A program made the translations under genes and the position numbers. From an uncultured Methanobrevibacter sp. (GTDB lineage Archaea; Methanobacteriota; Methanobacteria; Methanobacteriales; Methanobacteriaceae): a DNA stretch of 64,000 nt. The number at the start of each line of letters is the position of its first letter. Within the stretch, counting starts at the first letter, position 1. Below, in pieces: positions 59,171 through 63,860 of the stretch. Under the pieces are notes generated by a model. That model was not told where the DNA came from. It searched no databases and was given only the letters and a program-made list of their open reading frames with translations. Where the stretch lies: positions 1 through 64,000 of the forward strand of contig NZ_CADAJR010000026.1 in NCBI RefSeq assembly GCF_902788255.1, given 5' to 3'.

Positions 59171-60754
59171 GTGAAAACAATCAATGCAAAATATTATCTC
59201 ATACTGGGCATTATGATTATTTTGATAAGCATTTCTGCTGCAAATGCAACAGATGTGAGTAATTCGACTACGGATATATCTTCATATGATGAAATTCGGC
59301 TAGATTCCTCTTCAAATTTAAGTAAAGAGTTATCAAATGCAAATGATAACGATATAATCATACTTGAAAAGGGAACATACAAAATCAGCGATTTTGAAAT
59401 TACAAAAAATCTGACGATAAAAGGAAATGCCGATCCTCTTGATGTTATCATCGATGGAGAAAAAAAGTCAAGCATTTTTCTTATAAGAAACGATGCATTG
59501 CATGTCTCTTTTAAAAACTTGACATTCATCAATGCAAATGCAGAAGGATTTGGTGGGGCGATTTCAATGGAAACAGGACATGTATATGCAGATAATTGCT
59601 ATTTCATAAATAACACCGCCAGCGTAAATGCAGGGGGAATATCAAACTATGGAAACGAAACCCATAGAGGATACTTACTATTAAACAATTCCTTTTTCAT
59701 GAATAATCATGCAGGACATGACGGAGGGGCAGTAACCACCTGTTTTGCAGATTCATACATTTACAATTGTGTTTTTATCAATAATTCAGCACACAGAGAC
59801 GGTGGAGCAATAAGAGTGAGTGTTTCTGGATTCGGAAATGTTGAAGATTGTATTTTCATGTTTAACCATGCTGATGAATGGGGCGGAGCATATTACAGCT
59901 GGTCCGGCGAATCACATATCAACAGATGCATTTTCATGAACAATACTGCCGGAACAAACGGTGGCGCAGTGATGGTTTCAGGAAATATAAATCTGGAAAA
60001 TTCCATCATCACCAATAATGATGGCGGAGAGACTGGAGGCTCTTTCTACATACAACAACCCATGTACGATGCAAAAACCGTGATAAATATCCACAATAAC
60101 ATAATTACCAATAATTCATCACCTTACGGCAAAGAGATATTTATCAAATGGAAAGACACTAACCATTTGTATACCAAATTCGATAACAACGATTGGGGAG
60201 ATGAGGATCCAAATGATTCTTCCGTGATTGACCCAAACCATGTGACAGACAGAAGCCGGGTATCATCAACAATTAAATCCAATTTGTTTAGCATTCTAAA
60301 TGTGAATTTATTAGATAAATATAGCGATTTGATTAAAGACTTTTTCCCTGATGATTCAATGGACAATCTGAAAAGTCAATTTAAATCTCCGGAGTCCAAT
60401 CAAAATGAAAATAATACTAACAGCCATAAACATGCTTCAAATGATTTAAAAAATTCAAGTATTATAAGAAATTCAGATACCTTTAAATCAATTGAAAATA
60501 ATGTGAATAATGCAAAAACATCAAATTCCAAAGCTGAATTCAACTTTATTGAAAGCAATGCAAATCAACAGTTAATCGTAGGAAATTCAACATCACACGG
60601 TGATGAAGGCAATGCTTATGAATTAAACAAAATTGATAGCAGTTCAGTAGCTAAACAAGCTAATTTGAATATTGGAATATTCATTGCAATTATTGCAATA
60701 GTGTTAATCCTATTGGCTATCGGTTATAGAAAAGAAAAAAAGAACAGTAAATAG
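59171..60754 (+). CDS. Beta-helix surface protein with C-terminal membrane anchor
   Basis: A hydrophobic leader (YYLILGIMIILISISAANAT) is followed by a beta-helix (residues ~30-345: GGAISMETGHVYADNCYF; GGAVTTCFADSYIYNC), a Ser/Asn-rich stalk and one C-terminal membrane helix (IGIFIAIIAIVLILLAIGYR) with a basic end. Start is uncertain: GGAGGTG occupies 59167-59173 and includes the GTG, so a codon 6 bases later (ATC) or the ATG at 59213 may be used. Confidence 0.75.
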   Translation: MKTINAKYYLILGIMIILISISAANATDVSNSTTDISSYDEIRLDSSSNLSKELSNANDNDIIILEKGTYKISDFEITKNLTIKGNADPLDVIIDGEKKSSIFLIRNDALHVSFKNLTFINANAEGFGGAISMETGHVYADNCYFINNTASVNAGGISNYGNETHRGYLLLNNSFFMNNHAGHDGGAVTTCFADSYIYNCVFINNSAHRDGGAIRVSVSGFGNVEDCIFMFNHADEWGGAYYSWSGESHINRCIFMNNTAGTNGGAVMVSGNINLENSIITNNDGGETGGSFYIQQPMYDAKTVINIHNNIITNNSSPYGKEIFIKWKDTNHLYTKFDNNDWGDEDPNDSSVIDPNHVTDRSRVSSTIKSNLFSILNVNLLDKYSDLIKDFFPDDSMDNLKSQFKSPESNQNENNTNSHKHASNDLKNSSIIRNSDTFKSIENNVNNAKTSNSKAEFNFIESNANQQLIVGNSTSHGDEGNAYELNKIDSSSVAKQANLNIGIFIAIIAIVLILLAIGYRKEKKNSK

Positions 60755-60761
60755 ATTTTTT

Positions 60762-61193
60762 CTATTTACTATCTACTATTTTTTTATTAATATTGCGTGC
60801 AAGCAGGTAATCATACACATAAAATCCACACCAAAATACCGCTGCAAATACACATGCAATGACAATCCATGTGATTACCGGTCCGATTCCCAAGTCAATC
60901 GGCATCCATTTCAGGTATATTGCTATTAAAAACAAAACTGTCATTCCAATACCCATCTGGAATATTATCTGAAACGGCAATGGCAATTCCTCCCTTTCAT
61001 ATATCAATCCTGTCAATGAGAATCCCCAACCGGCGACAATACATCCGAAGAAGAGATTGATTATATCTGTTCCTGAAAAGCTGATGTTTTGAGGACCTGT
61101 CTGATATGAGATTAAAACCGCAACAAGCAATCCAATAAAACAACCTACAAAAGCGCCTAACGCAAGACTTTCTATTATATCTGTGAACTTCAT
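60762..61193 (-). CDS. DUF3021-like four-helix membrane protein
   Basis: Four predicted membrane helices over 143 residues with short loops; the first (ALGAFVGCFIGLLVAVLISY) and the last (FAAVFWCGFYVYDYLLARNI) fit DUF3021. In firmicutes DUF3021-like membrane proteins follow LytTR genes and inhibit the regulator they are paired with. Here it likewise follows the LytTR gene by 8 bases, so it is the proposed membrane partner. Confidence 0.65.
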   Translation of the reverse strand: MKFTDIIESLALGAFVGCFIGLLVAVLISYQTGPQNISFSGTDIINLFFGCIVAGWGFSLTGLIYEREELPLPFQIIFQMGIGMTVLFLIAIYLKWMPIDLGIGPVITWIVIACVFAAVFWCGFYVYDYLLARNINKKIVDSK

Positions 61194-61201
61194 CCTATCA
61201 C

Positions 61202-61642
61202 CTATAAATCCAATGCCCTTTTGAAATCCGGCAAATATTTTCTTGAGATATTGTCCTTCAAACCATTCTTAAGCTCAATGAACATCATTCCCTTAAGTGA
61301 AGGGGCAACCCTTTTAACTTTTTTGAGATTGACAATAGTTGTTTTTGAAACTCTCACAAAATCCCCAGTTAAACCCTCTTCAACTTGATACAATGGCTTT
61401 TTAATCATATAATCATCATTTTCAGTGTATACTCGGACTTTCCTGTCCTCAACACGGACCATGTAAATGTCCTTCAACTCCAAAAGCGTAATGTCTGAGT
61501 CATTATTGACCGCCATCATCTCGCTTTGGTCATCGCTTTCAAGAATGTTTATGGCCTTTGAGATGTTTTCTGTCAACTCATTTGTGTGAATGTCCGCATG
61601 AGGATTTTCAATATCTCTTGAAACAAATAAATTTACCTTCAT
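61202..61642 (-). CDS. LytTR-domain DNA-binding regulator
   Basis: The last ~95 residues are a LytTR domain: LLELKDIYMVRVEDRKVRVY, FVRVSKTTIVNLKKVKRVAP and GMMFIELKNGLKDNISRKYL. The N-terminal ~50 residues form a small domain without a phospho-acceptor pattern, so this is not a normal two-component regulator but a stand-alone LytTR protein. It lies in a three-gene unit with a 2TM protein before it and DUF3021 after it. Direct repeats with LytTR-type spacing lie upstream of the operon promoter. Confidence 0.85.
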   Translation of the reverse strand: MKVNLFVSRDIENPHADIHTNELTENISKAINILESDDQSEMMAVNNDSDITLLELKDIYMVRVEDRKVRVYTENDDYMIKKPLYQVEEGLTGDFVRVSKTTIVNLKKVKRVAPSLKGMMFIELKNGLKDNISRKYLPDFKRALDL

Positions 61643-61645
61643 TGT

Positions 61646-61921
61646 TTAATTCCTTAACTTTTCCATTTCTTCCTGGATCTTGCGTTCCCTGTAGCTTTCA
61701 CTGTCAAAATCATCAATGAACACATATGCCTTTAAAAAGTCGGCGATGACACCGATTCCCCAGAAAAATACAGGAAACATTACCCACCAAAAGCTTGGTG
61801 AAAATAGCCAGTTTATAATAAATAATATTGCATTAACAATTATATATGCTTTTAAGTTTCTATAAAATTTTATTTTGAGATTAACCCTTTCTTCTGCTCT
61901 TGCCCTTAAGTTATCTGTCAC
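61646..61921 (-). CDS. 2TM-domain membrane protein
   Basis: The chosen start is GTG after GGTGATAAT; an ATG 12 codons upstream is less well placed. A short charged leader (TDNLRARAEERVNLKIKFYR) precedes two membrane helices (LKAYIIVNAILFIINWLF; VMFPVFFWGIGVIADFLKAY) and a charged tail. This is the 2TM domain, often next to or fused with LytTR or sensor proteins. First gene of the LytTR operon, 3 bases before the regulator gene. Confidence 0.75.
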   Translation of the reverse strand: MTDNLRARAEERVNLKIKFYRNLKAYIIVNAILFIINWLFSPSFWWVMFPVFFWGIGVIADFLKAYVFIDDFDSESYRERKIQEEMEKLRN

Positions 61922-61961
61922 ATTATCACCTTTAAATCGATAATAATACTTGGTCAAAGCA

Positions 61962-61970
61962 CATATAAAG
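61962..61970 (-). promoter_or_regulatory. TATA box of the LytTR operon
   Basis: On the leftward strand it reads CCCTTTATATG, so BRE-like CCC precedes the TATA. It is placed 41-49 bases before the GTG start, giving a start of transcription near 61,941. Confidence 0.5.
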
Positions 61971-61989
61971 GGCTAATTATCACATTGAC

Positions 61990-62019
61990 TGAAGTGCAGA
62001 AAATGATGAGTGAAATGCA
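61990..62019. promoter_or_regulatory. Candidate LytTR box: TGAAGTGCA-N12-TGAAATGCA
   Basis: Two 9-base direct repeats (61990-61998 and 62011-62019) differ at one position and are separated by exactly 12 bases. LytTR regulators bind pairs of 9-base direct repeats with 12-13-base spacing. The pair lies about 20 bases upstream of the operon's TATA box, a position suited to activation. Confidence 0.6.
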
Positions 62020-62043: not shown

Positions 62044-62742
62044 CTATAATACAGCCACCAAGTAATATAAGATTGAAGTTATTGCCGGAACTGTCAGGTT
62101 GTCAATTCCACCATAACTGAAGGCCTCACATAATGTTGCAACCGCTGAAATCATTATGATGTAAACGAGGTTGAATTCAGGCATTGTGCATCCGATTGAT
62201 GTGAAAACCATCCAGACAAATACACTCATAACGGTTGTCACAACAAACATTGTAAGTGATCCTTCGAGGGATTTTGTGCCTCCGAATACTGTGTATTTGA
62301 CTTTACCGAATTTCTGACCGATTAATGCTGCAAATCCATCACCGTATACCATTGGAACAATGGCCAGTGCAACAATCCATATGAAGAATTTCGGATCGTT
62401 TGCAGGTGAAAGCATGGAATAAACTGCAATCAGTATTGTCCATATTCCCGCATAGAAGAACAGCCCAAGCGCATGGCCTGATTCGGTTACGCTGTTTTCT
62501 ATTTTGACAGGTGAATATTCTGTCAGGAAGAACAGTGCTATTGTGATAGGCAATGTCAAAAACCAAACCATTACCCATGGATCTGAGAAAAATGGCATGG
62601 CAAATATCATGTTACCTACCATAATATGTAAAAATTTACGTGAAACTTCAGGTCGTGTCTTTAAAACCAATTCAGCTACAACGAAAATGACAGCAACATA
62701 AACATATACGATAATTAATGCAAGGATATCCGAGAATATCAT
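62044..62742 (-). CDS. SEC59/DGK1/VTE5-family prenyl or lipid alcohol kinase
   Basis: Six or seven membrane helices with PEVSRKFLHIMVGNMIFA, PMVYGDGFAALIGQKFGK, GTKSLEGSLTMF and VATLCEAFSYGGIDNLTVP, the conserved cytosolic loops of CTP-dependent dolichol/phytol/diacylglycerol kinases. In archaea this group may phosphorylate geranylgeraniol or an ether-lipid alcohol. The ATG overlaps the stop codon of the tocopherol-cyclase-like gene by one base, so translation is coupled. Confidence 0.8.
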   Translation of the reverse strand: MIFSDILALIIVYVYVAVIFVVAELVLKTRPEVSRKFLHIMVGNMIFAMPFFSDPWVMVWFLTLPITIALFFLTEYSPVKIENSVTESGHALGLFFYAGIWTILIAVYSMLSPANDPKFFIWIVALAIVPMVYGDGFAALIGQKFGKVKYTVFGGTKSLEGSLTMFVVTTVMSVFVWMVFTSIGCTMPEFNLVYIIMISAVATLCEAFSYGGIDNLTVPAITSILYYLVAVL

Positions 62743-63860
62743 TAGTCATCATACTCCCCGTATTCGCAACCTGCATTTTCGATTTTCACATGGTCAATTA
62801 GGGTTCCGTCTTTCTTGTATAATTTTATTTCACCCCAACCGTTTCCACCGTTCCATAGGCGGTTGTGTCTTTTGGTTCCGTTAGGTGCCTCATAGTTGAA
62901 AAGCATCATTTCGTCACGTTTGCAGTATAAAACCAATTCCATCTTGGAGTTCTTATTGCTTGCATTGATGTGCCATGTGTTAACGTCTTCGCCTTCCTCA
63001 AAGTCAAAGTCGATTTTAACGAGGTTCCAGAATCTTGCGAAGTTATATTCGTACATGGTCCCTTCATAATAGAATCCAATCAATAGCTTACGTGGAATTT
63101 CAATACCGAAAGCCTTTGGCCTTCCTCCCCCGGCTTCAAATGCGGAGTTGTTCAGTTTTTTACCGGTTATCAAACTTGTAATGTTACATGAGGAAATCCA
63201 TAGCCATGGTGAGGTGAAGTCTCCTCCCCAGTTCTTGTCGGCATATCCGTAAGATTTTTCAGGAATCACTTCGTATTCTTCTCCATCCAGCCAGATAGTT
63301 CCGCTGTATTCTGTTTTGATTCCTTCCGCATGCCAAAACATTTCAAATGCGTTTAGTTTCCTGAAAAATGAGTTAGCACCATATCCCACATTAAAAGTGA
63401 TTTTCTTGTCAATGTCCAAGTCCCACATCATGTCCCCTGCATCTGACATGTATTCAGGGTGGTTTTTGGCATCCTCTTCAGACACTCTTGAAAAACCGCT
63501 CATGTGTGTTTCTGTAAGGCTGCAGTCCCCGACTTGAATGTTGAGCTCGTCATCAGGGCAGTTGAAGTATTTCATTGAGTAAAAATTATGAATCTGTTTT
63601 GGGTTTTTACCCCATGTTCCTGCCTTGATCATACAGTATGATGGTTTTTTACCTGCTTTTTGGTTTTCAGGCAATTGTCCGAGTGTTGGTTCTTCTTCTG
63701 CTAAATCTGGGTTGCATACGAAGTATTCTATGAAGAATGGTTTCGGTTCTCCTGTCTTTTTATTATATGCTGTTAATGAATGCCACCACCAGTCATATCC
63801 CTTTTTGGCAAGTGGTCCCTTGAGCATGTAATAGTCTCTTTTCAAATCACTTTTATTCAT
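62742..63860 (-). CDS. Tocopherol-cyclase-like (lipocalin-type) protein
   Basis: A soluble protein of 372 residues, no signal peptide or membrane segment. The segment SYGYADKNWGGDFTSPWLWI followed by SSCNITS matches the core of tocopherol cyclase and related lipocalin-like enzymes (YxEKNWG...WxWxQxN). The N-terminal YDWWWHSLTAYNKKTGEPKP and the C-terminal WNGGNGWGEIKLY resemble the beta strands around it. It is translationally coupled to a VTE5-like kinase. A TATA box near 63,895 and a GGAGGG site precede the ATG. Substrate unknown; a prenylated molecule is likely. Confidence 0.65.
   Translation of the reverse strand: MNKSDLKRDYYMLKGPLAKKGYDWWWHSLTAYNKKTGEPKPFFIEYFVCNPDLAEEEPTLGQLPENQKAGKKPSYCMIKAGTWGKNPKQIHNFYSMKYFNCPDDELNIQVGDCSLTETHMSGFSRVSEEDAKNHPEYMSDAGDMMWDLDIDKKITFNVGYGANSFFRKLNAFEMFWHAEGIKTEYSGTIWLDGEEYEVIPEKSYGYADKNWGGDFTSPWLWISSCNITSLITGKKLNNSAFEAGGGRPKAFGIEIPRKLLIGFYYEGTMYEYNFARFWNLVKIDFDFEEGEDVNTWHINASNKNSKMELVLYCKRDEMMLFNYEAPNGTKRHNRLWNGGNGWGEIKLYKKDGTLIDHVKIENAGCEYGEYDD

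Follow-up and report, generated by a model that had tools for sequence, protein, structure and literature searches.

The 64,000-nucleotide stretch of DNA analyzed here (the window), from contig NZ_CADAJR010000026.1 of an uncultured Methanobrevibacter sp., carries near its end a three-gene operon that quite probably encodes an archaeal LytTR Regulatory System (LRS) of the LytTR–DUF3021 type, in which the LytTR protein would activate its own operon and an exporter, and the membrane partners would hold it inactive. In bacteria, an LRS pairs a LytTR activator with a membrane protein that inhibits it (PMC6193735). The source genome (G000; 2.2 Mb in 69 contigs, with close relatives named Methanobrevibacter) encodes one LytTR protein as a whole, the product of the operon's second gene, and the promoter of this operon bears a direct repeat held at a nearly fixed distance from the TATA box throughout the family Methanobacteriaceae, which recurs in the source genome before an exporter operon.

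The three genes lie in tandem on the minus strand with short gaps, in the order 2TM, LytTR, DUF3021. The first (61646–61921) encodes a 91-amino-acid 2TM protein (PF13239, 79 bits) with a GTG start following AGGTGAT; the second (61202–61642) a LytTR DNA-binding regulator of 146 amino acids (PF04397, 78.4 bits against a cut-off of 22.6); and the third (60762–61193) a DUF3021 membrane protein of 143 amino acids (PF11457, 77 bits), the candidate inhibitor or sensor. For the 2TM gene, GTG at 61921 is the more likely start than TTG at 61957, since AGGTGAT precedes it, the proteins of relatives align from it, and transcription is expected to begin downstream of the TTG. PF04397 was the sole domain detected in the LytTR protein by a curated-profile scan, which found no receiver domain, and no kinase was present among five adjacent genes scanned with profiles. 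The regulator gene shares its operon with small membrane protein genes, DUF3021 directly 3′ and 2TM 5′ in nearly all loci, and the source operon has every LRS feature that a sequence can show.

Ahead of the 2TM gene, on the same strand, the distal box 1 (62011–62019; TGCATTTCA on the coding strand, TGAAATGCA on the plus strand) and the proximal box 2 (61990–61998; TGCACTTCA on the coding strand, TGAAGTGCA on the plus strand; family consensus TGCATCTTG) are followed by a TATA element, TTTATAT (ATATAAA on the plus strand), at 61963–61969, offset by 29 bases from the start of box 2. The layout reads TGCATTTCA-N12-TGCACTTCA, exactly 20 bases, then TTTATAT, and the general form of the half-sites is TGCAYYTYR-N12-TGCAYYTYR. 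An initial annotation of this DNA had described 2TM, LytTR, and DUF3021 as one unit with a 9-N12-9 direct repeat about 20 bases before an archaeal TATA box; the profiles and the gene order of relatives bear out the unit, and the repeat was right in coordinates and letters. Taken alone within the window, the repeat is weak and not significant against chance, with two matches at ≤1 mismatch where 0.69 would be expected, a count that 14 of 100 shuffled sequences also reached, so that conservation among relatives had to decide.

We searched upstream of 64 non-redundant Methanobacteriaceae operons, allowing periods of 17–25 and TATA offsets of 22–36, and observed a period of 21 in 60 of them. Counted from the start of box 2, the TATA element begins at 29 bases in 59 of these 60 complete sites and at 28 in one, a near-invariant placement in which box 2 ends 20 bp 5′ of an archaeal TATA box, in place of a −35/−10 promoter. 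The boxes hold 1.59 bits per column versus 0.71 for the 12-bp spacer. Contig ends truncate three of the four operons without a full site (L051, L071, and L074), and the promoter of the fourth (L072, genome G034) lacks one. In Methanobrevibacter loci L087 and L088, which hold the two most divergent archaeal homologues (44–47% identical), the exact geometry persists with changed half-sites, as read by eye (CTCATTTTA/ATCAACTTA and CACATTTCA/AACACTTTA, respectively). The initial annotation had made its proposal depend on conservation upstream of orthologues, which the repeat thus displays, and this comparative evidence indicates that the operator is real and functional, the LytTR-type regulator being its most probable ligand.

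The operon itself is similarly widespread in the family. Of the 60 genomes searched within the genus, the source genome counted, 49 have LytTR, and a search of 40 more distant genomes found none; DUF3021 occurs in 84 of 152 genomes from the phylum and in 10 of 20 genera, all of them, among the matches listed, within Methanobacteriaceae. The 2TM–LytTR–DUF3021 order is kept in about 60 loci of Methanobrevibacter and Methanosphaera, and DUF3021 adjoins LytTR in nearly all archaeal loci. Many operons (e.g., L007, L036, and L057) have a tandem pair of 2TM or 2TM-like genes before LytTR, with the operator ahead of the first, where the source genome has one. In G034, a perfect autoregulatory-type site with its TATA box lies on another contig (L190, C75), apart from the operon (L072, C117), and a 534-amino-acid open reading frame, taken for a transposase, is found 618 bases past the L190 operator; this arrangement suggests that an insertion element has come between the promoter and the operon, or that the assembly breaks at such an element. 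The LytTR frame of G009 (C3:55904-56188) is interrupted by one TGA and one TAA in a genome that is 99% complete and has an intact operator, which reflects either a decaying regulator or a sequence error. G002 has a second, divergent LytTR domain (C53:9741-10016; 47 bits) in a 233-amino-acid frame, unlike the regulator of its operon.

Looking for the repeat elsewhere in the source genome, as the initial annotation had also suggested, revealed a second target, which that annotation had missed. The pattern TGCAYYT-N14-TGCAYYT-N22-TTTATA has two perfect matches in the 2.2 Mb and none with one mismatch: one at the LytTR operon and one at C13:60212 (operator at G000:C13:60212-60267; about 2713–2768 of L177), before an operon for a MacB/FtsX-type ATP-binding cassette (ABC) exporter made up of a MacB_PCD/FtsX permease (369 amino acids) and an ABC ATPase (232 amino acids). 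TTTATAT starts 28 bases before the ATG of the permease, a distance that fits a leaderless transcript, and in both target promoters 20 bp separate the proximal box from TATA. The pattern matched in 53 of 60 genomes of the genus, a reversed control pattern gave two matches in total, and nearly all non-autoregulatory matches precede the orthologous exporter. Both exporter boxes were kept (at least 16 of 18 positions) in all 41 LytTR-positive genomes checked; for G006, G050, G053, and G030 the site was taken from the pattern match, the promoter comparison there having used the wrong paralogue. Two genomes without LytTR have lost the site: G007 retains an intact TATA box and an exporter of 89% identity but neither operator box, and G012 has lost both boxes as well. 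The exporter orthologue itself was found in 42 of the 49 LytTR-positive versus 5 of the 11 LytTR-negative genomes (Fisher p = 0.009).

A DUF3781 gene runs divergently from the exporter operon, and both its leader and its start codon, the latter in box 1, overlap the exporter boxes; this gene is therefore probably repressed at the same time as the exporter would be activated. The exporter TATA box is near-palindromic and may also serve the divergent gene. Six genomes (L197, L210, L185, L188, L215, and L216) carry a third such operator, identical in geometry, before a class I methyltransferase-like gene (MNAKEKTK..HF); no operator of this kind was matched in the source genome at ≤1 mismatch. Three one-mismatch matches with nearly identical letters (G007:C25, G016:C5, and G052:C2) look like a single conserved coding stretch.

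The predicted structure and the bacterial relatives of the regulator point in the same direction. The AlphaFold model of the LytTR protein (predicted local distance difference test, pLDDT, of 85) exhibits the LytTR beta fold of AgrA and ComE, and its best PDB matches were 3d6w, 4g4k, 3bs1 (AgrA with DNA), and the full-length ComE 4cbv (E from 1e-8 to 7e-4). For the bacterial comparison we used seven loci from a plasmid collection, Staphylococcus, Lactobacillus, Vescimonas, Paraclostridium, and Listeria among them, in which the alignment spans most or all of the protein; nine columns were invariant across the archaeal and bacterial rows, including the Ser and Asn of RxSKxxIxN and the Arg of SRKY. 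In six of these seven records LytTR is followed by a DUF3021 gene, in Paraclostridium with one gene between them; the seventh record (Listeria) is unannotated. Six of the seven loci have a clear 9-N12-9 repeat upstream, and no clear LytTR-like repeat of this form was seen upstream of the Paraclostridium gene; the Listeria half-site GCATCTTAG matches the archaeal box 2. DUF3021 gave no plasmid match by tblastn, and its link to bacteria therefore rests on Pfam and gene order. In a rough, small tree with long bacterial branches, the archaeal proteins form one group against the seven bacterial ones (support 95/95). The bacterial DUF3021 linkage, the upstream repeats, and the near-archaeal Listeria operator make a transfer from Bacteria, together with the operator, likely, and the seven loci are too few and too divergent for a donor to be named; alternatively, the half-sites may have converged on a shared DNA-binding surface.

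Comparison with described systems places the operon more precisely. Zou et al. (2018) already cover LRS, list the LytTR–DUF3021 pair as a putative LRS, and mention LRS in "some archaea" (PMC6193735). The source operon is of the same DUF3021 type as their "putative novel LRS" of Staphylococcus aureus, SACOL_RS12395/RS12400 (PMC6193735), which likewise has DUF3021 directly downstream and a 9-N12-9 repeat upstream of the promoter, and whose LytTR protein (147 versus 146 amino acids) is homologous over its full length at 25.5% identity in the plasmid copy; the S. aureus pair differs in its bacterial −35/−10 promoter, in its half-sites (GCCACTTAA/ACCATTCAA), and in having neither a 2TM gene nor a defined further target. 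The Listeria monocytogenes LRS lmo0984-0987 resembles the archaeal system in the letters and spacing of its operator (TTGCATCTTAG-N12-GCATGTTAC) and in that an ABC transporter is part of the system, whereas there the transporter is within the same operon, the promoter is bacterial, no 2TM gene is described, and the LytTR protein falls outside the archaeal group in the small tree. In the HdrRM system of Streptococcus mutans, 9-N12-9 repeats just upstream of the promoter are bound by the regulator and required for autoactivation (PMC6193735); HdrRM and BrsRM are comparable as LRS whose positive feedback was shown by experiment, and are unlike the source operon in their membrane protein families, in having the regulator gene first, and in their bacteriocin and competence targets.

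The one archaeal LRS in Table 3 of Zou et al. (2018) is that of the Thermoplasmatales archaeon BRNA1 (PMC6193735), which belongs to the methanogenic order Methanomassiliicoccales (PMC5011839), and for this reason the statement of the initial annotation that such a system is not described in methanogens is incorrect as worded and needs softening. The BRNA1 system (TALC_RS05580/05575) is also that of a rumen methanogen, but has a membrane protein of the S. mutans type, a different repeat (TCCGTCGGT/TACGAGGGA) with an 11-bp spacer, and an assigned bacterial −35/−10 promoter, and was presented without a conservation test. A survey of archaeal transcription factors counts LytTR among the scarce families (PMC8253408), and our literature search found no paper on a LytTR system in Methanobacteriaceae. 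The new elements are an operator locked to the TATA box, the exporter and the methyltransferase as targets, the disappearance of the site from two genomes without LytTR, and 2TM as a nearly constant third member.

Together, these observations suggest a mechanism in which LytTR would bind both half-sites from the same side of the helix, immediately 5′ of the region of the TFB recognition element (BRE) and the TATA box, and would then activate transcription, presumably by aiding the loading of the TATA-binding protein (TBP) and transcription factor B (TFB) or of RNA polymerase. Archaeal activators, not repressors, usually bind upstream of BRE/TATA and clear of the start site. We infer activation from the proximal box lying 20 bases upstream of TATA, clear of both BRE and start site. 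The predicted targets would be the LytTR operon itself, with positive feedback, the MacB/FtsX-type exporter, and in some species the methyltransferase gene. DUF3021, and probably also 2TM, would keep LytTR inactive until a signal, presumably from the membrane or envelope, frees it. Positive feedback and restraint by DUF3021 are suggested by analogy with the bacterial systems, the feedback also by the position of the site.

Several observations weigh against this interpretation. The genomes are kin, and the counts are hence not those of independent events. The other genera of the family mostly have one site per genome, so that the exporter target looks like mainly a feature of this genus and a later addition. 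The exporter site is also kept in three LytTR-negative genomes (G030, G035, and G037; 81–91% complete), for which missing assembly or another binder is possible. Finally, the start codon of the divergent DUF3781 gene could partly account for the conservation of box 1 at the exporter. As the sole cause of box 1 conservation at the exporter, this start codon was rejected, since G007, as read by eye, keeps an ATG at that position with both boxes gone, and no divergent gene adjoins the autoregulatory site.

The three LytTR-negative genomes favor the alternative that the repeat is a conserved site of another transcription factor, with the LytTR operon merely one of its targets. We nevertheless regard this as very improbable, given that 9-N12-9 is the known layout of LytTR sites, that the letters at the Listeria LytTR operon are nearly identical, that G007 and G012, both without LytTR, no longer have the site, and that the half-sites of distant homologues shift with the LytTR sequence at constant geometry. 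LytTR could also be a repressor that blocks TFB/TBP beside the BRE, with the membrane proteins as co-repressors or DNA-holding anchors. Many archaeal regulators do repress, and the overlap of the boxes with the DUF3781 leader and start agrees with such a role, the repression of that gene being likely even if the exporter is activated. However, the distance of the proximal box from TATA at both target promoters leaves BRE and start site clear, and bacterial relatives of the same layout autoactivate (PMC6193735), which makes general repression unlikely.

A further alternative concerns the membrane proteins, as DUF3021 and 2TM may be mere passive companions of LytTR, or may assist in the response of the exporter, with LytTR constitutively active. 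The literature search found no inhibition test for any DUF3021 protein, and the S. aureus pair is graded as putative by Zou et al. (PMC6193735); on the other hand, the strict three-gene linkage in the family, together with the LytTR–DUF3021 pairing in Firmicutes, parallels the proven HdrR/HdrM inhibitor pairs, and we consider passive partners rather unlikely. A broader reading joins these elements to the autoactivating LRS: a complete bacterial-style, membrane-gated switch would have been present in Methanobacteriaceae since early in the family, its operator TATA-locked for a beta-fold LytTR protein working via TBP/TFB, with a MacB-type exporter recruited in one genus and a third component, 2TM, not described for bacterial LytTR systems. 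All of these parts holding at once has, in our estimate, about an even chance.

The surroundings of the operon in the window exhibit further features. The DUF3021 gene is convergent with an adhesin-like gene (59171–60754), seven bases separating the stops, and an AAATAG/CTATTT inverted repeat near these stops (60755–60790) may end both transcripts. The upstream neighbor of the operon (62742–63860) encodes a protein with a tocopherol cyclase match (PF14249, 45 bits), unusual in a methanogen.

Few regulons are known from methanogens that live in hosts, and archaeal activators seldom have a defined operator. The outcome of this analysis is a predicted regulon of two to three promoters with exact sites, and it illustrates how a bacterial activator family can come to serve TBP/TFB promoters, apparently bringing its operator along. 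The predicted inducible transporter, which resembles drug exporters, may help methanogens of the rumen and gut to withstand membrane-active compounds, and this would bear on efforts toward methanogen inhibition.
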